NCBI RefSeq assembly: GCF_031458255.1
Contig: NZ_JAVDYC010000001.1
Location: 3,605,001-3,669,000 of the forward strand
Source: Catenuloplanes niger
GTDB taxonomy: Bacteria; Actinomycetota; Actinomycetes; Mycobacteriales; Micromonosporaceae
DNA: 64,000 bases
Direction of reading: 5' to 3'
Both the position numbers and the translations under genes were made by a program. Below are positions 36,692 through 51,693 of this stretch, piece after piece (position 1 is the first letter of the stretch; every line of letters begins with the position of its first letter). The notes below the pieces were generated by a model that did no database searches, was not told where the DNA came from, and was given only the letters and a program-made list of their open reading frames with translations.

Positions 36692-36775
36692 GGCGGGTTG
36701 CCCGAGCGGCCAATGGGAGCGGACTGTAAATCCGTCGCGAAAGCTACAGAGGTTCGAATCCTCTACCCGCCACCA
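36692..36775 (+). tRNA. tRNA-Tyr (anticodon GTA), AICE target
   Basis: 84 bases including an encoded CCA end: acceptor GGCGGGT/ACCCGCC, anticodon loop CTGTAAA (GTA) and a long class II variable arm. Its last 55 bases, from the anticodon stem on, are repeated exactly at 51639-51693, so the 3' half seen here was supplied by the integrated element and restores a functional gene. Confidence 0.97.
36721..36775 (+). repeat. attL core within tRNA-Tyr
   Basis: 55-base perfect direct repeat of 51639-51693, running from the 5' side of the anticodon stem to the CCA end. The integrase gene lies next to it, as in typical AICEs. Confidence 0.93.
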
Positions 36776-36907: not shown

Positions 36908-38338
36908 TCAGCCGGGCTTGTTCGCCTCATGCTCCTTGCGGAACGCGAGGATTCGGCGGAATGCGGCCTCCTCCTCCCCGTAGAGGCACTTCGCGTAGAT
37001 GTTAAGCAGCACCCGCACGCTGTGCCCGGCCCACTCGGCGACCAGGGTTGGCGAGACGCCGGCGTTCAGCCAGCTCGACACGCACGCGTGCCGGAGGCTG
37101 TAGGGCACCGGGGCGAGCCCGGCCGCAAGTTCGTCCGGTGTGAGTGCGGCCTGCCGCGCGCCGTGCCACGCGTTGAGCCGAGCGTTCGCGGTGACCGGTC
37201 GCCCCGTCGCCGGCAGGTACATCCCCCCAGGGCCGCGTCGGGTGACGAAGAGGCGACCGTCCGGACCGGGCGGGTACGTTTCGATGTGCCAGTCGAACAA
37301 CTTGCAGAGGTCGGGCTCGGCCGGCACGCTGCGCACGGTCTTCCTCGATCGATGCTTCAGCGAGCGGTACTCGTTCGCGCTGCCATCGTCGGTCCACGCG
37401 GTGCCGACCTCCACCACGGCGCCGCCGAGGTGAAGCCAGCCCCACCCGCCCGGTTCCCTTGGCCGCTCATATTCGTGCTTGTGCAGGTGGAGGGCTTCCT
37501 CCGGCCGAAGCGCGGCGAGGTACATCGAACCGAAGAACGCGGTCAGCTCGGGCGTGCGCTTCCGTACCGCGTCGAGTAGCCGGCCTCCCTGGTGAGGGTT
37601 GACGACCACCCGCCGGTCGACCGCCTCATCCTTCTCGGGCGCGATCCACTTCACCCGCTCCATCGGGTGGGTGTCGAGATGCCCCTCCTCCACGCCGTAC
37701 AGCAGCGCGCCGCTGAAAACCGCCCGCTTCCGTGCGACCGTGCTCGCCGCGGCGGCGGTGCCGTCGAGCTTCAGGGCGAGGCTATCCAGCACCTTCCGCA
37801 CTCGGGCCGCCTCGGTCAGCTCGGAGAGCTTGACCGTGCCTTTGTCCAGCCACGCCACCGCGTCCGCCAGCTCGGCTGGCGGCGGCCCGCCGGTGCGGCG
37901 CGGCTTGACGAACACGTAGGAGTTGAGTGCCTGCCGCAGCACCCCGTCCGCGGGGGCACCGCGTCGGCTGTCCACCAGCAGCGCCATCGTGGCACCGGTC
38001 AGCGTCTCCGCGATGCCCCGCCGGTGGTGAGCGGACACCCGCGGCCACTTCATCTCCGCGTATGCCACCGCGAGCTGCAACCACGTGATGCTGCGCTGCT
38101 CCCGCGCCATCGGTTCCGGCAGGCCGGTCGCAGTGTCGAACGCGACCCCCTCGCGCTGGTTGGTGACCAGCTTCGAGCGGAAGCTCTCCGCGAGCGCCAG
38201 CGTGGCGAAGGTGTCGCCGAACTTCTCGCCCGCGACCGCCCACCGGACCCGATACGAGGTGCGGGCTTTGCCGCCGCGCGCGGCCTTGTAGGTCCGCACC
38301 TCGATCTTGTAGATCCGAACGTCGTAGCTGAGGTTCAT
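36908..38338 (-). CDS. tyrosine-type site-specific integrase
   Basis: A 476-residue tyrosine recombinase. An N-terminal SAM-like/arm-binding region is followed by the catalytic domain with R278 (AALRPEEAL), R416-H417 (YSLRHACVS), H439 (WAGHS) and nucleophile Y448 (NIYAKC). The YxLRH form, with Tyr for the first catalytic His, is usual in actinobacterial integrases. It catalyses recombination between attP and the tRNA-Tyr attB. The ATG at 38336-38338 overlaps the excisionase stop by four bases, so the two are translationally coupled. Confidence 0.95.
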   Translation of the reverse strand: MNLSYDVRIYKIEVRTYKAARGGKARTSYRVRWAVAGEKFGDTFATLALAESFRSKLVTNQREGVAFDTATGLPEPMAREQRSITWLQLAVAYAEMKWPRVSAHHRRGIAETLTGATMALLVDSRRGAPADGVLRQALNSYVFVKPRRTGGPPPAELADAVAWLDKGTVKLSELTEAARVRKVLDSLALKLDGTAAAASTVARKRAVFSGALLYGVEEGHLDTHPMERVKWIAPEKDEAVDRRVVVNPHQGGRLLDAVRKRTPELTAFFGSMYLAALRPEEALHLHKHEYERPREPGGWGWLHLGGAVVEVGTAWTDDGSANEYRSLKHRSRKTVRSVPAEPDLCKLFDWHIETYPPGPDGRLFVTRRGPGGMYLPATGRPVTANARLNAWHGARQAALTPDELAAGLAPVPYSLRHACVSSWLNAGVSPTLVAEWAGHSVRVLLNIYAKCLYGEEEAAFRRILAFRKEHEANKPG

Positions 38339-38526
38339 GCGGCGCTCTGCTCCTCAAGGCTGTTGAGCCAGGCTTCGTACTGGGTGCGGCGAATGCGGAT
38401 CTCCCGGTTCGGGAGCTTGTAGCAGACCGGGGCCTTGCCCTGCGCCTTCCAGCGGAAGAACGTCGAGCGCGGCACCTCCTGCTCTTCCAGGAACTCGTCG
38501 AGCGTGAGGAAGTCCTTGCGTGGCAC
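38335..38526 (-). CDS. excisionase / MerR-type HTH DNA-binding protein
   Basis: A 63-residue winged-helix protein: DEFLEEQEVPRSTFFRWKAQG (helix-turn-helix) then a strand-rich KLPNREIRIRRTQYEAWL, the pattern of AICE Xis proteins of the helix_turn_helix_17 type. It would bend attL/attR DNA and bias the integrase towards excision. The start is GTG 38524-38526 with GGGGAGG upstream. It overlaps the integrase gene. Confidence 0.88.
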   Translation of the reverse strand: MPRKDFLTLDEFLEEQEVPRSTFFRWKAQGKAPVCYKLPNREIRIRRTQYEAWLNSLEEQSAA

Positions 38527-38773
38527 GGGTTCGGCCTCCCCTGGTGCGGTACTGCATGGGTCTGAGAGGGCGCCTGTAGCGCGAACGAGCGTCGGGGCAG
38601 CGCGGGAAAGGGTGCCGGGTGGGGAGCGACAGCGACCCGGAAAACGGCCCGCTGAGAGCGCCGCGGAGCCAAGATCTGCCCATGCCCGGTATGGCTGCAT
38701 GCACGAAACCGTCTCCGTGGCGCTGAGCGGGCCGCGTCCGATGCCGCTCCGGTGACGCGGACCGGAAAGGGCG
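38527..38773. other. gene-free gap upstream of xis
   Basis: About 250 bases without a convincing gene between the excisionase start and the GTGACA cluster. It probably contains the xis-int promoter, but no clear -35/-10 was identified. Confidence 0.4.
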
Positions 38774-38997
38774 GTGACACCGGTGACACGGTGACAATCG
38801 GCCGCAGTGCCGCCGTTGACGCAGGTCAGAGACGGTTTACATGTGTCACCGGGGGTGGTGACAAGGTGGTGACAAGTGGTGACAACGGCGTGGGGTGTCA
38901 CCACTGTCACCGGGGTGTCACCGGGCACCGGTGACACCTGCATCCATGCTCTGACCTGCGGTGAAGGCGGTTTCGAGATCGTCTGTCACCGTGTCAC
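38774..38997. repeat. GTGACA iteron-like cluster, candidate origin
   Basis: Thirteen exact GTGACA/TGTCAC sites in 224 bases: plus orientation at 38774, 38783, 38791, 38858, 38869, 38879, 38931; minus at 38844, 38896, 38905, 38916, 38984, 38992. Neighbouring copies are 8-11 bases apart, about one helical turn. The cluster covers the gap between xis and the replication-type genes and the 3' end of the DUF3987 gene. It resembles an iteron origin or a regulator-binding array. Confidence 0.65.
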
Positions 38998-40498
38998 CGG
39001 CTTCGAGCAGCTCCGCGGCGCGAGGGTGAAGCTCCCACCGGCCGTCGCGCTGCCGGACCCACCCGAGTTGCGCGAGGTTGTCGAGCGTGGCGGCCACCTC
39101 GGCCGCACTGCGGATCTGCCGGCGGACGCTGCGGTGCAGCTCCCGGACGGTGAAGGTGGTGACATCCTTCTCGATGAGGCGGGTGAGGACGTGGCGGGCC
39201 GGGCCGGTGGCCTTGTCGGCGGTGATCATGTCGCGGGCGGTCTGGTAGTGGGCGACGAAGAACTCGGCCAGCTTCACGGCGTCGGCCATGGTGCCGGCGT
39301 CGATCGGGTGCCGCCACGCGTCGTCCGGGCGGTGGGCGACGTGCAGCAGCCCGGCGAGCCGGATCGTGGTGCCGGCGAGCTTGTTCGCCCACTCCCGCAC
39401 GTCGCGCAGCGCGCCACCGGGACGCAGGTGCCGCTCGATGTCGGCCGCGGCGGTCGCGCGGATGCGTGCCGCGTCGTCGGTGAGCGCGACTACGGCCGGA
39501 TCGGACCACTCCGCCAGCGTCGCGGCGAGCCCATGGATCTTTTCGGCGTAGAGGTCGCGGACGGGCGTGGGGATCGGGTCGGGGTCGATCTCGCGGTAGC
39601 CGGCCAGCGATGCGGGGAGCACGAACAGGAACCGGGCGACCAGGCCGCGGCCGGCGAGGTCGTCGTTCCCGCCGAACTTGCGCAGCACGGACGGCTGGAT
39701 CATGACGCCGACGGTCAGCGCGGGCCGGGGGATGAACTCGCCCTCCCGGTTGTGCCGGTCGACGCGGATCGGCCGGCCGACGTGCCCCTTCAGGTACGGA
39801 TCGAGGTTCGGTGCCGAGCTGTACCGGCCGGCGAGCATGTCGAAGACCCCGCCCTCATCGGAGATCACGGCCATGCGTCCGCCGTTGTCGGCCATGAGGG
39901 AGATCAGTTTTTCCGGGGTGGCGTCGTCGGCGAACAGCCGCGGGAGCGCCGGGACGGTGATCGCTTCGGCGGCGAGGGCCGCGGCGACCGCTTCGGCGGT
40001 GGCGCCGTCGCGCTTGTCCGAGGTCGCTTTCGCCGCAACGGTCTTTGCGTGCTCGGCTTGCCGGCTGGCGATGTCCTTCAGGGCCGCGGCTTCCGCGACC
40101 GCGGCGCGGCTCTTGTCCGCGAGGGTCGCCTCGGCCGCTTCGAGCGGGTCGGTGAGCGCGCCGTGCACGGGGCTCTTGCGCTCGCCGGGCTCGGCGACGA
40201 CGGCGAGGAACAGGTTCACCGGTTCCCGCCATCCTGGCCGGGCCTCCACGTCGAGTCGGCCGCCGGCGCATGCCGACAGCACCGCGAGCGCGACTCCGCC
40301 GGCCATCGCGGGGTCGGTCTGGGTGAAGCGGGCGGTCGCGGTCACCATGTCGCCGAGCCACGGCGGGAGCACGTCGACCGGGAACGGCGGCGGCGCCGTG
40401 CTGCTGGTCAGCGGAACCGGTAGATCCCATCCGCCGGTGAGCGGTGCGGGCTGGTCGGCCACGTTCGGGACGATCTGCAAGCGTGCGGGTGTGGTCAT
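38918..40498 (-). CDS. DUF3987-family replication-associated protein
   Basis: A 526-residue protein. A P-loop-like GERKS (residues 105-109), a Walker B-like AVISDEGG (D214, E215) and a C-terminal helical region with a wHTH-like end (EKDVTTFTVRELHRSVRRQI) match DUF3987 proteins of phages and integrative elements, thought to be helicase/primase-like. The ATG at 40496-40498 (MTTPARLQIVPN) is four bases past the methyltransferase stop. Together with the PrimPol gene it probably forms the element's replication module. The 3' end carries several of the GTGACA repeats. Confidence 0.8.
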   Translation of the reverse strand: MTTPARLQIVPNVADQPAPLTGGWDLPVPLTSSTAPPPFPVDVLPPWLGDMVTATARFTQTDPAMAGGVALAVLSACAGGRLDVEARPGWREPVNLFLAVVAEPGERKSPVHGALTDPLEAAEATLADKSRAAVAEAAALKDIASRQAEHAKTVAAKATSDKRDGATAEAVAAALAAEAITVPALPRLFADDATPEKLISLMADNGGRMAVISDEGGVFDMLAGRYSSAPNLDPYLKGHVGRPIRVDRHNREGEFIPRPALTVGVMIQPSVLRKFGGNDDLAGRGLVARFLFVLPASLAGYREIDPDPIPTPVRDLYAEKIHGLAATLAEWSDPAVVALTDDAARIRATAAADIERHLRPGGALRDVREWANKLAGTTIRLAGLLHVAHRPDDAWRHPIDAGTMADAVKLAEFFVAHYQTARDMITADKATGPARHVLTRLIEKDVTTFTVRELHRSVRRQIRSAAEVAATLDNLAQLGWVRQRDGRWELHPRAAELLEAGDTVTDDLETAFTAGQSMDAGVTGAR

Positions 40499-40502
40499 TA
40501 GG

Positions 40503-41234
40503 TCACCGACCCGCGCGCTGGTGGTGGTCGTGGACAATCCGGCCGATGTGTTCGGCGACGGCGGGGACGACGGCGTTGCCGAGTGCTGCAAGTCGGTCCA
40601 TCCGGTCGGGAAGCCCATAAGCCACTCGATCCACTGCGGGTTCGGTCGGCCACCGATCAGGTCGGGCAGGTTCAGGCCGGTACGCGACCTCTCCCGACGT
40701 CGTGCCAGCCCGGCCGGGCTCAGCGCCCCGCGGGCCGAGTCGGCTCGTTTCGGTGTGGGCCAGGACGAACAGTCGGGCGCGTGGGTGTGGGGCGCCCACC
40801 TCGCAAGCGCGGATGACTCCGGCGGTGGCGGTGTAGCCGAGGTCCGCCAGGTCGGCCAGGACGCGTCCGAGTCCGCGGGTGCGGTGTCCGAGGACGTTCT
40901 CCCCGATGACGTATCGGGGTCGCAGGTCGTGGATGACGTCGGCCATGGCGGGCCACAGCCAGCGGGGGTCCTCGTCGCCGAGTCGTCGTCCGGCGAGGGA
41001 CTCGCCTTGGCAGGGGTAGCCGCCGGCGACCACGTCGACTGCGGGTCGGGGGTGGGAGGTCCACCAGGCGGTGGTGGTGCGTACGTCGTCATGCTGGGGA
41101 ACCTCCGGCCAGTGCTTGTGCAGGACGGCACGGCAGAACGGGTTGATCTCGACGTGGCCGACCACGCGCATCCCGGCGCGTTCCAGTCCGAGTGACATGC
41201 CGCCGATCCCGGCGAACAGCTCCAGCACGTTCAC
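40503..41234 (-). CDS. C5-cytosine-specific DNA methyltransferase
   Basis: A 243-residue Dcm-type enzyme: motif I LFAGIGGMSLGLERAG, motif IV GGYPCQGES with catalytic C75, motif VI GENV (E112), motif VIII HPRARLFVLA and motif X ALGNAVVPAVAEHIG. It transfers methyl groups from S-adenosylmethionine to cytosine. No restriction endonuclease gene is adjacent, so it is a solitary methyltransferase, perhaps for protection from host restriction or for replication control. The GTG start overlaps the PrimPol stop by four bases. Confidence 0.92.
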   Translation of the reverse strand: MNVLELFAGIGGMSLGLERAGMRVVGHVEINPFCRAVLHKHWPEVPQHDDVRTTTAWWTSHPRPAVDVVAGGYPCQGESLAGRRLGDEDPRWLWPAMADVIHDLRPRYVIGENVLGHRTRGLGRVLADLADLGYTATAGVIRACEVGAPHPRARLFVLAHTETSRLGPRGAEPGRAGTTSGEVAYRPEPARPDRWPTEPAVDRVAYGLPDRMDRLAALGNAVVPAVAEHIGRIVHDHHQRAGR

Positions 41235-42484
41235 CGCGTCACGCCCTCGGCCCGGAACCCGCCGTCGATCGCGGCGCGGATCTCCCGATCGGTCTGCCCC
41301 GCCTCACGGCCTACGCCCACCAGCGCGGTCTCGGCGTCGGTGCTGGTGAGGCATCCGGCGGCGACCATCTTCGCCACGCCGCGGGCGACGCCGTAGAGGG
41401 TGGTGCGTCGGCGGCCCTCCGCGGCGGTGCGCACTCGGTCGAGCAGCGTGTTCAGGAGTCGGTCGGGGTAGGAGATGCCCCCCGCGCCGGCGAGCGCCAC
41501 CGGTGTACTCGCCGGCGCGGTCGTGGGGAGGTCGTCGGGGTGTGGGTTGCGCAGGGTGCGGATGCCGGCGTGGTCGGCGAGGTTCGCGCATCCGGTGGCG
41601 CCGGGGGAGGCGTCGCGGATGAACGCCAGGCACAGGACGGGGCGGGTGGCGACCATTGCGGCGTTGCGGGCCGGTCCGGCGCGGCGGCCGGTGCTCCAGT
41701 CGGCCGGGTGTCGCTCGACCGTCACGTGGTGGTGCCGGCACCACGCGTCGGCGATCGCGTCCGCACCACGTGGGCAGGCCCCGTGCACGATGGTCAACGC
41801 CGGCCCGTGATCGCGCAGCAGCCGATCCAGCACGACGGTCACAGCCGCGGTATCGGTCCACGTCCGGGAGCCGGTGAGCAGCACCCGGAACGCTCGCGCG
41901 GCCGACGTCGGTACGCACGCGGCTGCCAGCGCGGGGGGCATCTCCTCCACCGGGCGCCCGTCGTCGGCCCACCGATAGGCGCGGCCGGTGCGCTGGTGGA
42001 TCGAGGGCGGCAGCACCGCGTATCCGCCGTCCGCGCGCACGTCGAGGCCCGGCCCGAGCACGCTCTGGCTGCACGGGATCGGCCGGCCGGGGTGGGCGTA
42101 GTACAGGTGCATGCCACCGGAGCCGGTGAGCACCCGCGCGGTCGGCGGCAGCATCCCGGCCTGGATCAGCGCGGACATGCTGCGGATGCCGTCGTGGGCC
42201 GGGTCGACGTCGACCACGACCAGGCCGGAGGATGCGCCGGTGCGGACCGCGAGCTGACCTCGCGATACCGCGGCGACGATCTCGGCAACCCGGTCAGGGT
42301 CGCGGGTCGCGGCGTAGAAGCCGTGGCAGGTCAGGCACGGGCAGGACTCGCGGTCGTGGCGCGGGTCCGCCTCAGCGCTGGGACAGTCCGTGCAGTTGGC
42401 GACCGGGCGCTTGGACCGGCCGAGCATGAACACGGGCCAGCCGCGGTCGGCCGCGGCCAGCGCGGCGTCGAGCATGTTGGACAT
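41231..42484 (-). CDS. bifunctional primase-polymerase fused to a SLOG/DUF2493 domain
   Basis: A 417-residue fusion. Residues 1-190 are an archaeo-eukaryotic PrimPol domain: cysteines C31, C34, C48, C50, C53; catalytic VVDVD (D92, D94); GSGGMH (H126); GLDVRADGGYAVLPPS (D149). Residues 198-312 are a DUF2493/YspA-like SLOG domain: VLLTGSRTWTD, IVHGACPRGADAIAD, GPARNAAMV. Residues about 335-417 are helical, like a primase C-terminal region. SLOG domains bind nucleotide-derived ligands, so the insertion may sense or process nucleotides during priming. The ATG at 42482-42484 follows GGGAGG. Confidence 0.88.
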   Translation of the reverse strand: MSNMLDAALAAADRGWPVFMLGRSKRPVANCTDCPSAEADPRHDRESCPCLTCHGFYAATRDPDRVAEIVAAVSRGQLAVRTGASSGLVVVDVDPAHDGIRSMSALIQAGMLPPTARVLTGSGGMHLYYAHPGRPIPCSQSVLGPGLDVRADGGYAVLPPSIHQRTGRAYRWADDGRPVEEMPPALAAACVPTSAARAFRVLLTGSRTWTDTAAVTVVLDRLLRDHGPALTIVHGACPRGADAIADAWCRHHHVTVERHPADWSTGRRAGPARNAAMVATRPVLCLAFIRDASPGATGCANLADHAGIRTLRNPHPDDLPTTAPASTPVALAGAGGISYPDRLLNTLLDRVRTAAEGRRRTTLYGVARGVAKMVAAGCLTSTDAETALVGVGREAGQTDREIRAAIDGGFRAEGVTR

Positions 42485-42533: not shown

Positions 42534-42815
42534 TCAGGCACCCCGCTTCTGCCGTGCCGCGGTCAGGTCGAGCAGCGTCCCGCCGTCGGCCAGCGTTTCG
42601 GTGCCGCGTCGTGTGCGGGTCTTGGCCGTGATCGCGACGCTGTACCGCACGTACAGCCGGTACCGGCGTTCGTCGCATGCGCCGGCGAGCCGTCGCCGTG
42701 GTGAGCGGTAGAGCAGCCGGCCGGTCTCGCGCAACGCAGCGAGCGCTGCGTCCAGCTCGGTGGTGGTGCCGATGAGCCAGACCTCCAGCCCGATCGGCAC
42801 CTCTCCGGCCGTCAT
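42534..42815 (-). CDS. hypothetical AICE protein
   Basis: A 93-residue basic protein, no membrane segment. The predicted alpha/beta pattern (LEVWLIGTTTELDAALAALRETGRLL) resembles small AICE proteins of unknown function. The ATG is at 42813-42815. It is in the transfer-replication operon between the PrimPol gene and a membrane protein. No catalytic motif is visible. Confidence 0.65.
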   Translation of the reverse strand: MTAGEVPIGLEVWLIGTTTELDAALAALRETGRLLYRSPRRRLAGACDERRYRLYVRYSVAITAKTRTRRGTETLADGGTLLDLTAARQKRGA

Positions 42816-42816
42816 C

Positions 42817-43170
42817 TCAGGCCACCCGCAGCCAGTACAGGATGCCCACGCCGACGCTCAGCAGCGCGAGCACGACCGGGACGGCCGGGTGTGGTGCGGG
42901 GCGCCAGCGCCGCCGCCGGTGGATGGTGGTGCCGATGTAGAGCACCCAGCTGGCCGCGGTGAGCGCGGCGGTGGCGAGGGCGAGGGTGGCGAGGCGGGGC
43001 AGCCAGACGGCGGAGAACCGCACCGCGAGCCAGACCGCGACGGCGAGTAGGGCGATCATCGTGACGGGGAAGACGAGTCGTTTGGTGATCTCGGCGGCGA
43101 GGAACCAGCGCCACATGCGGCGCCCGAACTCGTCGGCGGCGCCGCGGCGGGCTTGCCGGATCCAGTTCAT
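42817..43170 (-). CDS. small membrane protein, Spd-like
   Basis: A 117-residue protein with three membrane segments (about 30-52, 57-78, 95-115) and a basic N-terminus (MNWIRQARRGAADEFGRR). Small polytopic proteins next to TraB (Spd proteins) help intramycelial plasmid spread in streptomycetes; a similar role is inferred from size and place. The start is ATG 43168-43170; a GTG four codons upstream is an alternative. The repeat array at 43195-43310 lies immediately upstream. Confidence 0.65.
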   Translation of the reverse strand: MNWIRQARRGAADEFGRRMWRWFLAAEITKRLVFPVTMIALLAVAVWLAVRFSAVWLPRLATLALATAALTAASWVLYIGTTIHRRRRWRPAPHPAVPVVLALLSVGVGILYWLRVA

Positions 43171-43194
43171 AGGGGTGCTCACTCTCCGGTGATG

Positions 43195-43310
43195 TTCACG
43201 GACTTCACGGACTTCACGCTTCACGGACTTCACGAGGGGTCGCGCGCACGCGCACGCGCGCGTTAGGGGGCGTTTCCGGGTCCGCGCGTGAAGTGCGTGA
43301 AGTGCGTGAA
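43195..43310. repeat. opposed TTCACG/CGTGAA repeat array, candidate clt or operator
   Basis: Five TTCACG copies at 43195, 43204, 43213, 43220 and 43229 (mostly 9 bases apart, GACTTCACG units) face three CGTGAA copies at 43287, 43296 and 43305 (also 9 apart, CGTGAAGTG units). Between them lies an alternating purine-pyrimidine tract (about 43241-43263). The array is just 3' of traB, where the clt site recognised by TraB has been mapped in Streptomyces plasmids such as pSVH1. Confidence 0.6.
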
Positions 43311-43331: not shown

Positions 43332-45344
43332 CTAGGTAGCCGCGCCGACGAGGGCGGGCTGTGGTGCGGGGTCGTCGAGGATGACGTAGACGCCGCGGTC
43401 GGCGGCCTTGCGCAGCAGCGGCCCGCGGTCCGGCTCGCAGAACTCACCGAGGATCTTCGTGATCGTCGGCGGCCGGAGGCCTTCCTCGCCGATGACCTCG
43501 ACGACCTGAGCGAACGACGACGGCTTGATCTGCCGGACGCCGGCGTCGCGGTGCTGGACGATGGCCTGCCGCATGATCTCCCGGATCTGCAGCGGGGTGA
43601 ATCGCTGGTCGGTCTCCGGCTCGATCGTCAGGTCGATGCGGCGCCGGTTCGGCACGGTCAACGGTATGCGCGGGTCCGGGTCCGGCTCGCACTCCGGGTC
43701 GATCGGCAGCGGCGGGCACTCCGGATCGTCGTCGTCATCGTCGTCGGCGACCTCGCCCGGTTCTCCGGCCGGGACCGGCGCCGCGGGCTCGCCGGCGTCG
43801 CGCGAGGTGTCGGGCTGGTCGGCGGTCGCGACGTACTCACCGATCGCGGTCAGGTAGGCGACCAGTTCACCGATCACCGCGTCCCGATCCGGTTTGAACG
43901 TGCGGGCGGGAAGCGACCAGTCGTCGGGGTCGGTGCCGGGGATCTCCGCGTAGAGGGCGCCGGGCTTGCTGTTCTTCCAGCCCGGGTCCGCGCCGGAGGC
44001 GATGGTCTCTTCCGACAGCACGCGGGCGCCCTCGGCGGCGTCCTTGACGCCCATGCAGATCGCGCCGCCGGTCGTCGACCGCACCGAGGTCGGCATACGG
44101 TCGCCGGTGGCGCGCTGGACGCCGAGCAGCATGAAGATGCCGACCGAACGGATCGACTCCGCCAGTTCCACCAGGTCCTCTTCGGCCTCGATGATGAACT
44201 TCGACGCCTCATCGACGATGACGACCTTGAACTTCGGGCACTGCGGGCATCCGGCGGTCCACTGCTCGTGGCCGTGCGCGCCCATCTGGTCCGCGCGGCG
44301 GCTGACGTCGGGGATCAGGTTGGCGAGGTAGTCCTCGGCCTCGCCGGTGTCGGTGATCATGAGGTGCATGGAGTTGCGGAACGGTGCCGGGAGCTGCTTG
44401 CCCTTGCGGGCGTCGATGTAGACAACCTCGGCGTCCCGGCGCGAGCGGGCCTCGGCCGCGAGGAACAGCTGGAACTCGGTCTTGCCGGACCCGGACTGGC
44501 CGAGCAGGATCAGCACGCCGACCGCGTTGCGGCCGGCGGCGGGGTCGCCGGGCAGCAGCAGCGGCAGCGGCTTGCCGGTCTGGTAGACCGCGAGCCGGAT
44601 CGGGTCGGCGATCGACCCGCCCACCGCGGACAGGCCGGGCCAGGCCGGCGGGTTGTCGAGCATGTCCACCGGGGAGACCTCGATTCGGCCGGTACGCGGG
44701 CTGTTGCGGTTGGCGACCATCCGCACGCCGCCCGCGGGCACGTCCAGCGCGGACGCGATCGCGGTACGGACCTCGGGCTTGGCGAGCGCGCCGAAGTCGG
44801 CGCCGGGGACCATCGCGGTGTCGGTGACGATCCGGCCGTCCATCACTCGCGGCCGGGTGGTCGCGCCGATGTCCTGCAGTTCCTTGACCCGCTCGCCGAG
44901 TTCACCGAACAGGCCCGTCCGGGCGTCGTCTCCGTTGCCGCGCATCAGCTTCGTCAGCGCCAGCAGCACCGACGCGCACGCCATGACGATCAGGTAGACC
45001 ATCACCGAGTCACGCGTCCAGCCGCGGAACGTCAGCACGAACAGGCCCACGCACGACCCGGACGACATCAGCAGCGACGCGAACCGCAGCTCGATCTTGC
45101 GTGCCCGGCCGACCGCCCACGTCGTGGCCACGATCGCCGCGGCACAGACCAGAATCAGACCGGACCGCCACGCGGTCTGCCACGTGTCCGCGTCGGCGTA
45201 GGCGCCCCAGACCAGCGACAGCACACCCGACAAGATCAGGTTCGCGACCGCGGCGACCGGCGGGATCACGTACGCCCACAGGTTGTTCTGCATCTCCGAC
45301 GCGGCCCCGCGGGCGACGTTGAGGGAGTAGGTGCGGCGGCCCAT
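43332..45344 (-). CDS. TraB-type FtsK/SpoIIIE DNA translocase
   Basis: A 670-residue conjugation ATPase. Four membrane segments (about 24-130) are followed by the motor with Walker A GQSGSGKT (282-289) and Walker B VVIVDE (374-379), an acidic linker (about 510-540) and a C-terminal winged-helix region (FAQVVEVIGEEGLRPPTITKIL) resembling FtsK gamma or TraB recognition domains. It moves double-stranded DNA between mycelial cells as the only dedicated transfer protein. The ATG overlaps the stop of the upstream gene by one base. Confidence 0.92.
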   Translation of the reverse strand: MGRRTYSLNVARGAASEMQNNLWAYVIPPVAAVANLILSGVLSLVWGAYADADTWQTAWRSGLILVCAAAIVATTWAVGRARKIELRFASLLMSSGSCVGLFVLTFRGWTRDSVMVYLIVMACASVLLALTKLMRGNGDDARTGLFGELGERVKELQDIGATTRPRVMDGRIVTDTAMVPGADFGALAKPEVRTAIASALDVPAGGVRMVANRNSPRTGRIEVSPVDMLDNPPAWPGLSAVGGSIADPIRLAVYQTGKPLPLLLPGDPAAGRNAVGVLILLGQSGSGKTEFQLFLAAEARSRRDAEVVYIDARKGKQLPAPFRNSMHLMITDTGEAEDYLANLIPDVSRRADQMGAHGHEQWTAGCPQCPKFKVVIVDEASKFIIEAEEDLVELAESIRSVGIFMLLGVQRATGDRMPTSVRSTTGGAICMGVKDAAEGARVLSEETIASGADPGWKNSKPGALYAEIPGTDPDDWSLPARTFKPDRDAVIGELVAYLTAIGEYVATADQPDTSRDAGEPAAPVPAGEPGEVADDDDDDDPECPPLPIDPECEPDPDPRIPLTVPNRRRIDLTIEPETDQRFTPLQIREIMRQAIVQHRDAGVRQIKPSSFAQVVEVIGEEGLRPPTITKILGEFCEPDRGPLLRKAADRGVYVILDDPAPQPALVGAAT

Positions 45345-45741: not shown

Positions 45742-46320
45742 TCAGAGGATGTGGTGGGAGAACAGACCGTTGCGGCGGACCTCGATCACGCCCTCGCGCA
45801 GGTACCGGCCTGCCTTCGGCGTGAGTCGCAGCGGGAGCTTCGGCGGGAGCTTGCGGAACGCTGCCAGCGGCACGCCCTCGGCGCCGGCGGTGATCAGGTC
45901 GACCTCGGCCATCTCGATCAGCGCCTTGTCGTCGACATCCGCGAGCTGCTTGACCTGCCGGACCTGCGCGAGCGGACTCGACCGGCGGTGCTCGCGCAGC
46001 AGCCGCAGCACCTTGTTCCAGGGCTGCGCGACCTTCGCCATACCGCCCGGGGTCAGGTACATGACCCCGAACTGCGTGATCCGGATCGGCGCCCGGTCGA
46101 CCAGCTCGGACCACAGGAACGGCATGTCACCGGCCTCGGTCGGCAGCCAGTACTGCACCCAGCCCCGCTCCTCCAGGGTCGCGAGGTCGTCGAAGTCCAG
46201 CGGCTGGCACTCGTTGAGGATCGTGACGATCCGCCGGCGCTGACCGGCGATCTCCATGTCGCGCATCCAGTTCAGCGCCCGCCACAGCGGGCTCGGCGTC
46301 GCGAAAAAGCTCTCAGACAT
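45742..46320 (-). CDS. hypothetical AICE protein, paralogue 1
   Basis: A 192-residue protein homologous to the next gene upstream (46313-46873). Both open with ESF(F/L)AT...LWRALNWM and share LDDL..LE.RGWV.YWLPT and a C-terminal PL.AFR.LP..LPLR.T.K. The end resembles a winged-helix module. The ATG is at 46318-46320; it overlaps its paralogue by eight bases. Its function is unknown; a DNA-binding or partner-selection role in transfer is possible. Confidence 0.7.
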   Translation of the reverse strand: MSESFFATPSPLWRALNWMRDMEIAGQRRRIVTILNECQPLDFDDLATLEERGWVQYWLPTEAGDMPFLWSELVDRAPIRITQFGVMYLTPGGMAKVAQPWNKVLRLLREHRRSSPLAQVRQVKQLADVDDKALIEMAEVDLITAGAEGVPLAAFRKLPPKLPLRLTPKAGRYLREGVIEVRRNGLFSHHIL

Positions 46321-46873
46321 AGCGATCGGCTCCCTCGATCGCGCCCTCGGGCAGGTACATCTCGGACTTCTTGGTGACCCGCAACGGCATGTCCGCGGGC
46401 AGGCGCCGGAACGCGGTCAGCGGCACCGGGTGGATGCCGGCGATCAGGTCGAGCCCGGCCATCTCCGTCAGCGTCGCGTTGTCCACGTCCGCGGACCTCA
46501 TCACCGCCTTGACCCGGGTCAGCGGGCTGCGCTGGATCTTGAACGGGTGCAGCACCCGCAGCACCCGGTTGAACGGGTGCCGGAGCTTCTTCTCCGCCGC
46601 CGGTGTCCCGGCGAGCCGCGCGAACGGCAGCTGGGCGAGGGCTGCGGCCCGGTAGCGCAGGTTGGCCAGCTCGAACGGCATCTCATCGGCCCCGGTGGGC
46701 AGCCAGTAGTGCACCCACCCGCGGTCTTCGAGCGCCTGGAGGTCATCGAGATCGAGCCACTGCGTGTCGACGGCCGCCGCGATCGTGGGCCGCACGCCAC
46801 GGGCCTGCGTGTCGTGCATCCAGTTCAGCGCCCGCCACAACTCGCGTCGCGTGGCCAGGAAGCTCTCAGCCAT
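46313..46873 (-). CDS. hypothetical AICE protein, paralogue 2
   Basis: A 186-residue tandem paralogue of 45742-46320. The ATG at 46871-46873 gives MAESFLATRRELWRALNWM; a longer in-frame reading upstream covers the zinc-finger gene and is rejected. It differs from its partner mainly in the middle (residues about 75-105), where it is more Ala/Arg-rich. Divergence after an in-element duplication is the simplest explanation. Confidence 0.7.
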   Translation of the reverse strand: MAESFLATRRELWRALNWMHDTQARGVRPTIAAAVDTQWLDLDDLQALEDRGWVHYWLPTGADEMPFELANLRYRAAALAQLPFARLAGTPAAEKKLRHPFNRVLRVLHPFKIQRSPLTRVKAVMRSADVDNATLTEMAGLDLIAGIHPVPLTAFRRLPADMPLRVTKKSEMYLPEGAIEGADRYV

Positions 46874-49235: not shown

Positions 49236-49380
49236 CCGATCTTCGGCTTCTTCGTGGCTGTGGTGGAACATCATCGGCCTCCAATGAGTGCCGCCAATCG
49301 CGGGATCTTCACACCCGGCATCGATCAGGCACACTGAGAGCATCCGCCGCGTGTGGCGCGCGAGACGAGGCCGTGATGTG

Positions 49381-49410
49381 GCCGGGCCGACTTGGCCATG
49401 TCGGCCCGGC
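49381..49410 (+). promoter_or_regulatory. hairpin/operator before the XRE regulator gene
   Basis: A perfect 11-bp inverted repeat GCCGGGCCGAC/GTCGGCCCGGC around an eight-base loop, ending just before the GAGGGAG ribosome binding site of the XRE-TPR gene. It may be an autoregulatory site or attenuator. The rest of 49236-49380 shows nothing notable. Confidence 0.5.
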
Positions 49411-49422
49411 GAGGGAGTGAGC

Positions 49423-50859
49423 ATGGGGCAGCCGCGGAAGATGTTGAGGCCGGACAGGTCCGCCCGTGACCTGTGGGGAGCGGAACTCCGTGCCTTGCGC
49501 GACCGGCATGGGCTGTCTCTCGCAGAGCTGGCGTCCCGGATCTACTACGACGCATCTCACCTGGGAAAGTTCGAGCGCGCGGAGCGGAAGCCACCACGGG
49601 GGATCGCTGAGGCGTGCGATCAAGTCCTCGGCGGGACCGGTGTGCTCGTGCGGCTTTGGGACGCCATGCAGGCCGCGAGCCGGCATGAGGCCACGCCCGG
49701 AAACGCGGCCAACCCGCCGAGGCATGAGGCCAATCTAGGGGCCGATGAGGCGGGTTTGATCTCTGGCCTAGCGATCGGCACCAGCGCGGCGGCAGCATCG
49801 GGGGACGAGGCCGTTTCCCTGCCGGTGCTGCTTGACGGAAAGGTCGTCTACGTGTCCGTAACTCGTCGCGCCCTGCTGAAGCTGACTGGGGCGTCAGCCG
49901 CCCTCGCCGTGCCCGCGCTTGGTGCGCCGACTCCTGCACTCGGCGCACCAGTTGCACCTGCTCCAGACGCGAACCCGATTGAGCACTTGACCGCGGTGCG
50001 GCGGGTGCTCATCGACAATGACAACCTCTTCGGACCGCGAGCTGTCATCCCCGCCGTCCAGCACCAGATCGGAGTCATGGGGCACCTACGCGACCAGCTC
50101 GCTGGCGTGGACCGGCGTAACCTCACCCAGTTGCGAGCGCAGTTCGCCGAGTTTGCGTCGTGGCTGCACCAGGATGCGGGGGACTTCACCCAGGCCCAGT
50201 TCTGGCTCGATCGGGCGCTGGAATGGGCATACGCCGGAACCGATCATGACCTGGCCGCGTACGTCTTCGCGCGAAAGGCGCAGCTCGCCGGCGACATGGG
50301 CGACCCGATGCAGGCGATCGACATGGGTCAGGCCGCAGAGGACATGGCACGGCCAGGGACTCGGCTGGCGGCGATCGCAGCCGTATACACCGCGCACGGA
50401 CACGCCCTGCGCAACGACTCGGATGCTGCGGATCGGGCCTACGAGCGGGCGCGTGTGCTGGTAGCCCGCGGGGACTTCGACCCGGCCTCGACGTGGGGCA
50501 TATGGCTGGATCAGGCGTACATCAGCGTGCACCAGGCGCGCAGTCTCCATGCGCTCGGGCAGCATGAGGGCGCGGCGGCTGGCTTCGCCACCGCGATCAC
50601 CAACACGCCGGCTGGCTACCACCGCGACCGAGGTGTCTACCTGGCGCGTCAGGCAGCCGCGCACCGTGGCGCCAGGCAGCCCGAGCAGGCCGCGGGCATC
50701 GGCATGCAGGCGCTCGCCGTAGGCGCGGCCACCCAGTCCGCGCGCATCCTGACCGAGCTGGCGACCCTCGATGTCGATCTGATGAGCCGGTGGCCCTCGG
50801 TGCCCGAGGTTGCCGCCTTCCACCAGGCGCTGACCAGCGCCGTTCCATCCGCCGCCTGA
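49423..50859 (+). CDS. XRE-family regulator with C-terminal TPR-like domain
   Basis: A 478-residue protein. The N-terminal XRE helix-turn-helix is at about residues 15-70 (LWGAELRALRDRHGLSLAELA). The middle holds a linker with RRALLKLTGASAALAVPALGAP, and the C-terminal 250 residues form TPR-like helical repeats (e.g. AQFWLDRALEWAYAGTDHDL). Such proteins regulate AICE or secondary metabolism genes in actinomycetes. The ATG at 49423 follows GAGGGAG. It is adjacent to a RibD-like gene, a recurrent pairing in actinomycete elements. Confidence 0.85.
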   Translation: MGQPRKMLRPDRSARDLWGAELRALRDRHGLSLAELASRIYYDASHLGKFERAERKPPRGIAEACDQVLGGTGVLVRLWDAMQAASRHEATPGNAANPPRHEANLGADEAGLISGLAIGTSAAAASGDEAVSLPVLLDGKVVYVSVTRRALLKLTGASAALAVPALGAPTPALGAPVAPAPDANPIEHLTAVRRVLIDNDNLFGPRAVIPAVQHQIGVMGHLRDQLAGVDRRNLTQLRAQFAEFASWLHQDAGDFTQAQFWLDRALEWAYAGTDHDLAAYVFARKAQLAGDMGDPMQAIDMGQAAEDMARPGTRLAAIAAVYTAHGHALRNDSDAADRAYERARVLVARGDFDPASTWGIWLDQAYISVHQARSLHALGQHEGAAAGFATAITNTPAGYHRDRGVYLARQAAAHRGARQPEQAAGIGMQALAVGAATQSARILTELATLDVDLMSRWPSVPEVAAFHQALTSAVPSAA

Positions 50860-50872
50860 CCCTGGAGACCAG

Positions 50873-51553
50873 ATGAGCCGCCCGTACGTGCTGTTGAGCG
50901 TCGCCACCTCAATCGACAGCCGGATTGACGATGCCAGCACTGATCGACTCCTACTGTCCAACGCCGAGGACTTCGACCGGGTGGACCAGGTGCGCGCCGA
51001 GTCTGACGCCATCCTGATCGGCGCGGGCACGATGCGGGCGGACAACCCCCGCCTGCTGGTCAACAGTGAGGCTCGGCGTGCCGCGCGGGTGGCTGCCGGG
51101 AAGCCAGCCTTCCCTCTGAAGGTCACCATCACCGCGAGCGGCGACATCGATCCTGGCCTGAAGTTCTGGCACCACGGCGGAGACAAGATCGCGTACACGA
51201 CCGATGCAGGCGCGGAGAAGCTGCGCGAGCGCCTGGACGGCCTGGCTGAGGTGGTGTCGCTCGGCGAGACGATCGACCTCGGACGGCTGCTTGATGACTT
51301 GGGCGCGCGAGGGATCGAGCGCCTGATGGTGGAGGGCGGCAGCTCCGTGCACACCGCGTTCCTGTCCGCGGGCCTGGCCGATGAGCTTCATCTGGCAGTC
51401 GCGCCTTTGATCGTCGGAGATGCGGCGGCACCGCCTTTCCTGCGGCCAGCGGCATACCCGGGCGGATCAACGCGGCGCATGCAGCTCGCCGAGGTGCGCG
51501 CCGTGGGGGACGTGGCGCTGTTGCGATACCTGCCGAAGGAAGGCGCCGCGTAG
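50873..51553 (+). CDS. RibD C-terminal-domain reductase (DHFR-like fold)
   Basis: A 226-residue protein with MSRPYVLLSVATSIDSRID, AILIGAGTMRADNPRL and MVEGGSSVHTAFL, matching the NADPH-dependent pyrimidine reductase domain of RibD. It lacks a deaminase domain, so it is a standalone reductase of riboflavin-type pyrimidines or an unrelated substrate. It lies 13 bases after the XRE-TPR gene and is the last AICE gene before attR. It is a cargo gene of unknown benefit to the host. Confidence 0.88.
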   Translation: MSRPYVLLSVATSIDSRIDDASTDRLLLSNAEDFDRVDQVRAESDAILIGAGTMRADNPRLLVNSEARRAARVAAGKPAFPLKVTITASGDIDPGLKFWHHGGDKIAYTTDAGAEKLRERLDGLAEVVSLGETIDLGRLLDDLGARGIERLMVEGGSSVHTAFLSAGLADELHLAVAPLIVGDAAAPPFLRPAAYPGGSTRRMQLAEVRAVGDVALLRYLPKEGAA

Positions 51554-51638: not shown

Positions 51639-51693
51639 GGACTGTAAATCCGTCGCGAAAGCTACAGAGGTTCGAATCCTCTACCCGCCACCA
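51639..51693 (+). repeat. attR core of the AICE
   Basis: 55-base perfect repeat of the 3' part of tRNA-Tyr (36721-36775). It lacks the 5' half, so it is not a tRNA gene. It marks the right end of the element. Confidence 0.93.

Follow-up and report, generated by a model that had tools for sequence, protein, structure and literature searches.

Actinomycete integrative and conjugative elements (AICEs) with a primase-polymerase (Prim-Pol) and SLOG domains of the YspA type are both already known. The gene described here joins the two in one reading frame and lies within an AICE of Catenuloplanes niger, in a 64,000-nucleotide stretch of RefSeq assembly GCF_031458255.1 (contig NZ_JAVDYC010000001.1, positions 3,605,001 to 3,669,000, forward strand). 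That whole stretch is called the window below, and its numbering is used throughout. In the AICE Prim-Pol module of Ghinet et al. 2011 (PMC3218068; SLP1 SCO4617-type), the Prim-Pol has a putative replication gene next to it and shares its AICE with an FtsK-like Tra and an integrase, as here; 40 such Prim-Pol AICEs are reported in the available part of that paper. The same part makes no mention of SLOG or DUF2493, whereas in the window a SLOG domain precedes the C-terminal region of the Prim-Pol protein and a DUF3987 gene lies downstream.

The SLOG domain shares its conserved residues with the YspA/YAcAr SLOGs of actinophages and bacteria (PF10686, DUF2493) and matches their Pfam model over the cut-off, but those proteins mostly lack a Prim-Pol. 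According to the available text of PMC9503650, viral SLOGs are typically stand-alone or associated with Macro, NADAR or DUF4326 domains, and the word primase is absent from that text. The nearest solved folds of the Prim-Pol part are those of pRN1 ORF904 and phage NrS-1 (1rni, 3m1m, 6a9w), which are only 12-15% identical over the aligned part and have no SLOG in their entry titles. In ThsA (SIR2-SLOG) of the Thoeris system a SLOG controls an enzyme on the same chain, as described in the accessible part of PMC11204291; however, the partner in ThsA is an NADase and not a primase, no TIR was seen among the element open reading frames (ORFs) scanned, and the ThsA structure 6lhx stands far down the list of structural matches. 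The polyvalent proteins of conjugative elements are likewise multi-domain, with Primpol among their domains and a possible role directly after transfer, but SLOG is unmentioned in the available part of their description (PMC5512222), and the fusion protein is small and its gene adjoins a helicase gene.

Of most interest among the present findings is that primases of conjugative elements have gained a sensor-type domain repeatedly and in a cassette-like manner. The Prim-Pol and SLOG fusion was not found among the matches listed in searches of the open-licence literature; Burroughs et al. 2015, reportedly the work in which these SLOG families were defined, according to later papers, may show such an architecture.

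Gene structure and domain organization

The fusion gene (41231..42484, reverse strand) starts with ATG at 42484, stops at 41231 and encodes 417 amino acids with zero internal stops. A preliminary description, made from the sequence alone, had read it as one gene joining a Prim-Pol to a YspA-like SLOG, and had suggested a search with both Pfam families and structure prediction. Both domains matched over their curated cut-offs: PF09250 (Prim-Pol) at residues 8-184 (E=1.2e-39, 136.7 bits against 22.8) and PF10686 (YAcAr/YspA SLOG) at residues 200-265 (E=2.2e-18, 66.3 bits against 28.2). By profile search (E<=0.01), PF10686 occurs once in the window genome, at the fusion gene only. A frameshift or assembly join was considered and rejected: the host genome is one 9.74-Mb contig and independent homologues exist. 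An artefact is unlikely since, besides the single contig, genome G004 of the same genus has the same domain order in one frame at 66% identity.

The Prim-Pol domain comprises residues 1-190 (41915..42484, reverse strand). The Prim-Pol catalytic motif consists of DxD, His and Asp. D92, D94 and H126 were correctly named in the preliminary description, while the last residue had been misplaced by one and is D148 instead of D149; all four are invariant in the seven Prim-Pols aligned (7/7). The best Foldseek matches of this part are the pRN1 and NrS-1 primase-polymerases, with E values down to 1.8e-5.

The YspA-type SLOG domain occupies residues ~198-314 (41543..41893, reverse strand). The PF10686 model, with 66 positions, spans the first half of the SLOG fold only; the second half, to about residue 314, is supported by PHROG 16939/289 (residues 195-311), homologue alignments and AlphaFold2. 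The fold anticipated at residues 198-312 was borne out. The isolated domain was modelled from 48 rows with a predicted local distance difference test (pLDDT) score of 96.3 as a Rossmannoid of strands alternating with helices. In a Foldseek search its matches were molybdenum-cofactor carriers, DprA and LOG, at query-normalised template modelling (TM) scores of 0.53-0.67, mixed with other Rossmann folds. Motifs start at residues 204 (TGSRTW), 234 (HGACPRGAD), 270 (GPARN) and 293 (SPGATGC). The residues invariant in all ten fused SLOGs listed below are R200, G205, R207, G235, G240, D242, E257, P260, W263, G270, R273, N274, M277 and G295. The YspA/YAcAr set (G-R, GAD, E--P--W, AG--RN--M) is kept in the window and in 10/10 fusions, and its members are the commonest letters in the 73 other rows.

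A linker at residues 315-339 (41468..41542, reverse strand; pLDDT <50 at 325-339) leads to the C-terminal helical region that had been noticed earlier, here four modelled helices at residues 340-412 (41249..41467, reverse strand). This region is common to unfused Prim-Pols, and relatives match it separately at about residues 320-416. The whole-protein AlphaFold2 model, from a 34-row alignment, has a mean pLDDT of 85.1 and a predicted TM score (pTM) of 0.56. Within it the SLOG part is also well modelled, the Prim-Pol part is good except at residues 21-60 (block mean pLDDT 62-76), and the first C-terminal helix is weakly modelled (block pLDDT 56-62), with the other helices at 83-94. Because of the pTM of 0.56 the domains are probably not rigidly packed. 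In a test alignment composed like alignment A4, which holds four SLOG rows, ~17% of the residues of six rows with Prim-Pol and C-terminal parts landed in SLOG columns. Neither the window fusion protein nor that of L130 matched a PADLOC family at E<=0.01.

Distribution of the fusion

A search of 101 relative genomes with the fusion protein matched 46, with G004 as the only one, apart from the window, to align over the full length. The usual close homologue is without SLOG, and its match splits into residues ~1-196 and 320-416. Compared with the unfused relatives L058 and L059, the SLOG is a clean insertion between the Prim-Pol and the C-terminal region. Among 354 genomes of Micromonosporaceae, 14 PF10686 places were found in 12 genomes (E<=1e-6). 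Seven of these places are in frame with a Prim-Pol (G000, which is the window genome, and G004, G034, G216, G347, G366 and G381), and one, in G044, is joined to a sigma-70 factor. At that last locus (L149:7983-9236, the same as L057), the YspA SLOG and a sigma-70-type factor with regions 2 and 4 share one frame at a contig end.

The SLOG alignment was also used for a pattern scan of 84,980 genomes, which gave 40 loci with six fusions: G216, G366 and G381 were found again, and L130, L131 and L136 (Streptosporangium, Sinosporangium, Herbidospora) were new. The scan is not exhaustive, since exact peptide patterns were required and G004, G034 and G347 were missed. Ten distinct Prim-Pol and SLOG fusions are known from these searches: the window, G004, G034, G216, G347, G381, G366, L130, L131 and L136. 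Both Pfam domains were over the cut-off in 8/8 of the ten that were scanned with Pfam. The SLOG is internal in two (window, G004) and N-terminal in eight, and the Prim-Pols belong to two diverged groups. In G034, G216, G347 and G381 the SLOG is N-terminal to a Prim-Pol related to that of the window; in G366 a SLOG 89% identical to that of G216 stands ahead of a Prim-Pol only 34% identical to that of the window. All nine non-window fusions have a tRNA gene in the region fetched around them, and the tRNAs are mostly different. Judging by these tRNA genes, separate integration of the fusion-bearing elements is likely.

A survey of actinobacterial AICEs and phages for the same fusion had been proposed in the preliminary description. 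In 50,697 phage and 72,556 plasmid records no single place covered 80% of either of two fused queries. None of 29 SLOG-bearing viral contigs had the domain fused to a Prim-Pol, none of the best 80 of 201 Prim-Pol viral contigs had a SLOG in the fetched 2.5-kb flanks, and two viral scans returned no relative.

No separate SLOG was found near an unfused Prim-Pol in 51 regions (L058-L110 minus L107 and L108, both fetched for their SLOG) by tblastn at 1e-4 and by profile, several of the regions stopping at contig ends. In one genus elsewhere in the order, G085 (L316:6072-10816) and G094 (L317:9307-13782), an unfused SLOG lies upstream of a Prim-Pol on the same strand, at distances between open frames of 2.2 kb and 3.1 kb, respectively. 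A DUF3987 gene is present in the L316 region, and an integrase and an excisionase in the L317 region. The statement that the SLOG is never separate from an AICE Prim-Pol was dropped given these two genomes. Their arrangement also ties the SLOG to Prim-Pol elements, and is possibly the state before fusion.

Three further observations concern related loci. In a Brevundimonas metagenome-assembled genome (MAG), the single case from Pseudomonadota, a SLOG gene ends within an ATGA that also begins a Prim-Pol gene (L156:7995-10771). Among the matches listed for a search of 384 genomes of the family of G862 with L130 as query, one place spanned both domains, in G1041 (L319, G1041:C14). The spanning match contains two internal stops, and the profile found the Prim-Pol and no SLOG frame; this is possibly a degraded fusion. 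G1019, which matched L130 from residue 54, had no SLOG by profile. Three contigs of one Actinomycetales MAG (L125, L126, L128) carry SLOG genes near the fused AICE lineage with no in-frame Prim-Pol.

Evolution of the SLOG module

A Prim-Pol tree of 67 rows (57 without SLOG, 8 with an N-terminal and 2 with an internal SLOG) was obtained by a quick search, with support from the Shimodaira-Hasegawa-like approximate likelihood ratio test (SH-aLRT) only. This tree requires 7 changes of the SLOG state, as gains or losses, and all 7 are forced by branches with SH-aLRT >=95. The window Prim-Pol groups with the unfused L058 and L059 (top identity 80%), and the fused Prim-Pol of G004 with the unfused L105. 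Approximately unbiased (AU) tests reject monophyly of the fused Prim-Pols at three levels: all ten together (p=1.9e-59), the six that belong to the window's group (p=3.9e-7) and the pair with an internal SLOG (p=7.9e-6).

By contrast, the SLOGs of the window and of G004 pair as sisters in the tree of that domain (support 83); they share 79% identity, and the Prim-Pol and C-terminal parts of the same two proteins share 60-61%. Since G004 has both the fused Prim-Pol and an unfused one that is 78-79% identical to that of the window, one can readily imagine an exchange inside a single cell. In the best SLOG tree the seven SLOGs from Micromonosporaceae group together, with a support of only 23. A clade of all ten fused SLOGs was rejected (p=0.011), a result in favour of two or more recruitments. 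A DNA block of ~470 bp is common to G216 and G366 at ~89% identity, reaching from about the start of the SLOG gene to near the start of the Prim-Pol, with flanks mostly 40-65% identical in a forced alignment; this block and its low-identity flanks suggest that the SLOG was transferred as a cassette.

Ratios of nonsynonymous to synonymous substitution (dN/dS) were roughly estimated for pairs by the Nei-Gojobori method. Four pairs of fused SLOGs gave 0.287, 0.242, 0.101 and 0.282, and three pairs of Prim-Pols gave 0.20-0.45. Judged by these ratios, the SLOG is under purifying selection. On the sequence evidence, it is a discrete added module whose attachment to Prim-Pols happened repeatedly, in two different positions. 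The repeated joining suggests that the SLOG matters for the copying of the element or for its survival in the host.

Proposed function and alternatives

The gene product is regarded as a putative AICE replication primase-polymerase that gained a ligand-binding SLOG module. The Prim-Pol would start DNA synthesis of the excised element along with the DUF3987 helicase, whose gene lies a short way downstream. The SLOG would bind a nucleotide-type ligand, for which the best guess from the superfamily is a molecule of the nicotinamide adenine dinucleotide (NAD) or ADP-ribose (ADPr) type. Together with the flexible linker to the C-terminal region, the SLOG might gate priming, or link replication to the state of the cell's nucleotides or defences. 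That a ligand-binding SLOG acts in one of these two ways is proposed tentatively, with a likelihood somewhat short of even. This idea of priming plus sensing is better motivated because of the repeated joins, the two positions, the two Prim-Pol groups and the residues kept in 10/10 fusions.

In the available parts of PMC9503650 and PMC6459960, YpsA-like SLOGs are described as sensors or processors of NAD/ADPr-type ligands, and in that of PMC7824862 the YAcAr SLOGs are counted among the domains known or predicted to use NAD. In Saccharopolyspora elongata a YspA SLOG is fused to a NADAR domain (L139:8001-8825; PF08719 E=1e-22). The SLOG of that protein falls outside the window's SLOG group in the SLOG tree; the fusion points to a candidate ADP-ribose link for the PF10686 family. 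LOG phosphoribohydrolases have the catalytic motif PGGxGTxxE. By an ungapped motif alignment, as distinct from a structural superposition, the position of the catalytic Glu is Leu302 in the window SLOG; it is Leu in 52/83 rows, and Glu is outside the six commonest letters. With Leu302 at this position, binding or sensing is the likelier role of the SLOG, ahead of phosphoribohydrolase activity of the LOG type; the missing Glu favours binding over hydrolysis of the LOG type, and other chemistry would still be possible.

Several results weigh against the proposal that the SLOG gates or couples priming. Among the closest Prim-Pol places in the matches listed, a SLOG is present in 6/84 (hand count), which makes the module an optional one. 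Across the class, a draw of 384 genomes gave 8 PF10686 places (E<=1e-8) of which 1, the window's own, is fused, and across the order a draw of 397 genomes gave 6 SLOG places (E<=1e-20) of which 2 are fused, both in Micromonosporaceae; the association of SLOG and Prim-Pol outside this family is weak. The separate SLOGs near Prim-Pols in G085 and G094 imply that a physical link is not required, and some of the 7 changes of SLOG state may be losses. A pTM of 0.56, with no fixed arrangement of the domains, leaves gating without structural support. Foldseek of the SLOG model against the PDB gave zero matches at E<=0.001, and a sequence search for solved structures returned no relative of the Prim-Pol part or the SLOG part. 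Neither TIR nor SIR2 was found among the 10 + 9 element ORF products (longer ORFs) scanned with Pfam, and no ligand or activity of any PF10686 protein was found reported in the passages of the literature covered.

A first alternative is that the SLOG is counter-defence cargo, which binds up or breaks down a nucleotide of host immunity (an isomer of cyclic ADP-ribose, for instance) and rides on an early-made primase with no control of priming. Phage SLOGs, mostly YpsA-like, are proposed to counter ADPr-derived signals in the available text of PMC9503650; genes for free-standing members of this SLOG family are found in many viral contigs and actinophage records; and the module is patchy and swaps between carriers as accessory cargo would. 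A free protein would scavenge equally well, yet 7/14 of the Micromonosporaceae SLOG places are fused against 0/29 in viral contigs, and the LOG-type catalytic Glu was not found. This alternative is considered unlikely, although it keeps a real share of the probability. If true, it would describe a defence-evasion module spreading among elements on a primase.

A second alternative is DNA handling in the manner of DprA, the SLOG binding single-stranded DNA and helping to place the primase on its template or to load a partner protein. DprA is among the structural matches (4ljk, 3uqz), and phage homologues are annotated as DprA-like. The match reflects the fold of the whole superfamily, however, since molybdenum-cofactor carriers and LOG score similarly, and the conserved residues are the YspA set that is also kept in non-fused proteins. 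The domain is basic, with a computed isoelectric point (pI) of 10.2 and a mean of 9.7 in the fused SLOGs (10 rows) against 8.7 in the others (73 rows), a difference between plain averages; high-GC actinobacterial proteins are often basic. DprA-like handling is held to be rather improbable.

The chance is poorer still, roughly one in ten, for a SLOG enzyme that makes or salvages a nucleotide product for the adjacent polymerase or generates a signal. According to the available parts of PMC9503650 and PMC6459960, SLOG proteins include some enzymes that process nucleotides. The R273/N274 pair is kept in 10/10 fusions. LOG has an Arg-Lys motif, with which this pair may align. The Leu at the Glu position, in the window and in most rows, speaks against such an enzyme, as does the lack of any recognised synthesis partner among the element ORFs scanned. 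An accidental, functionless fusion kept by chance would fit the patchy distribution and the weak association outside Micromonosporaceae, but is very improbable in view of the AU tests against one origin, the two architectures, the SLOG dN/dS of 0.10-0.29 and the diagnostic residues intact in 10/10.

As for the preferred proposal of a ligand-binding SLOG that gates or couples priming, YspA-type SLOGs occur in many bacteria and phages, with no reported ligand found in the sources as available, and their recurrent fusion to an assayable enzyme offers priming as a direct read-out for a ligand search. If the SLOG controls the primase, a conjugative element would have wired a nucleotide sensor into its replication enzyme. 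A wider extension, in which a transferable SLOG cassette yields signal-gated AICE replicases, a host signal (for example NAD-derived) switches replication, and the sensor is traded by recombination, is speculative and must be called doubtful.

Host element and neighbouring genes

The preliminary description had placed the gene in an AICE, and the surroundings agree. The element is ~15 kb long and is integrated in a tRNA-Tyr gene (36692..36775, forward strand; ARAGORN) between 55-bp exact direct attachment (att) repeats, the first at the 3' end of the tRNA gene (36721..36775, forward strand) and the second at 51639..51693 (forward strand). A tyrosine integrase (36908..38338, reverse strand) matched PHROG 1 (integrase, E=1.1e-22), and PF00589 at 21.4 bits, under the cut-off of 27.1. 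The last ~70 codons of the adjoining ORF (38335..38943, reverse strand; no Pfam match) are named a putative excisionase by position, and a segment resembling it adjoins the integrase in related elements. The TraB/FtsK-like DNA translocase (43332..45344, reverse strand) matched NF041214 plasmid_TraB (E=4.4e-91, 306 bits, under the cut-off of 800) and PHROG 1358 (FtsK/SpoIIIE-like, E=5.6e-12).

Downstream of the fusion gene lie a short C5-cytosine methyltransferase (40503..41234, reverse strand; PF00145 E=7.8e-34, matched over positions 1-165 of the 324 in the profile), which may lack a complete target-recognition region, and the DUF3987 putative replicative helicase (38918..40498, reverse strand; PF13148 E=2.2e-113 on the longer ORF; PHROG 2373 DNA helicase; start deduced). 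The methyltransferase ORF and the stop end of the fusion gene share 4 nt, and a gap of 4 nt separates the methyltransferase from the deduced DUF3987 start, so the three genes probably form one operon. In a tblastn survey of 63 related loci, methyltransferase matches were near only a few and did not track the SLOG. With the window's element genes as queries in these 63 loci, no partner gene of the SLOG stood out. The gene order tra, small genes, Prim-Pol, DUF3987, xis and int is partly recurrent among them.

Directly upstream of the fusion gene is a 93-aa gene (42534..42815, reverse strand) with no significant family, found at the same position in several relatives. Between it and tra is a 138-aa gene (42817..43233, reverse strand; DUF3487 E=1.8e-4, under the cut-off), whose position is also kept in several relatives. 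Toward the second att repeat are a regulator with helix-turn-helix and tetratricopeptide repeat (TPR) domains (49288..50859, forward strand; PF13560 E=6.6e-12; TPR_12 under the cut-off) and, just inside the repeat, a RibD_C-domain reductase as element cargo (50873..51553, forward strand; PF01872 E=2.6e-38). Two adjacent genes at 45742-46873 contain repeated blocks of 116, 91 and 69 nt with 71-80% identity at a spacing of ~553 nt, and are probably paralogues. Both were matched in one of the 63 loci, L059.

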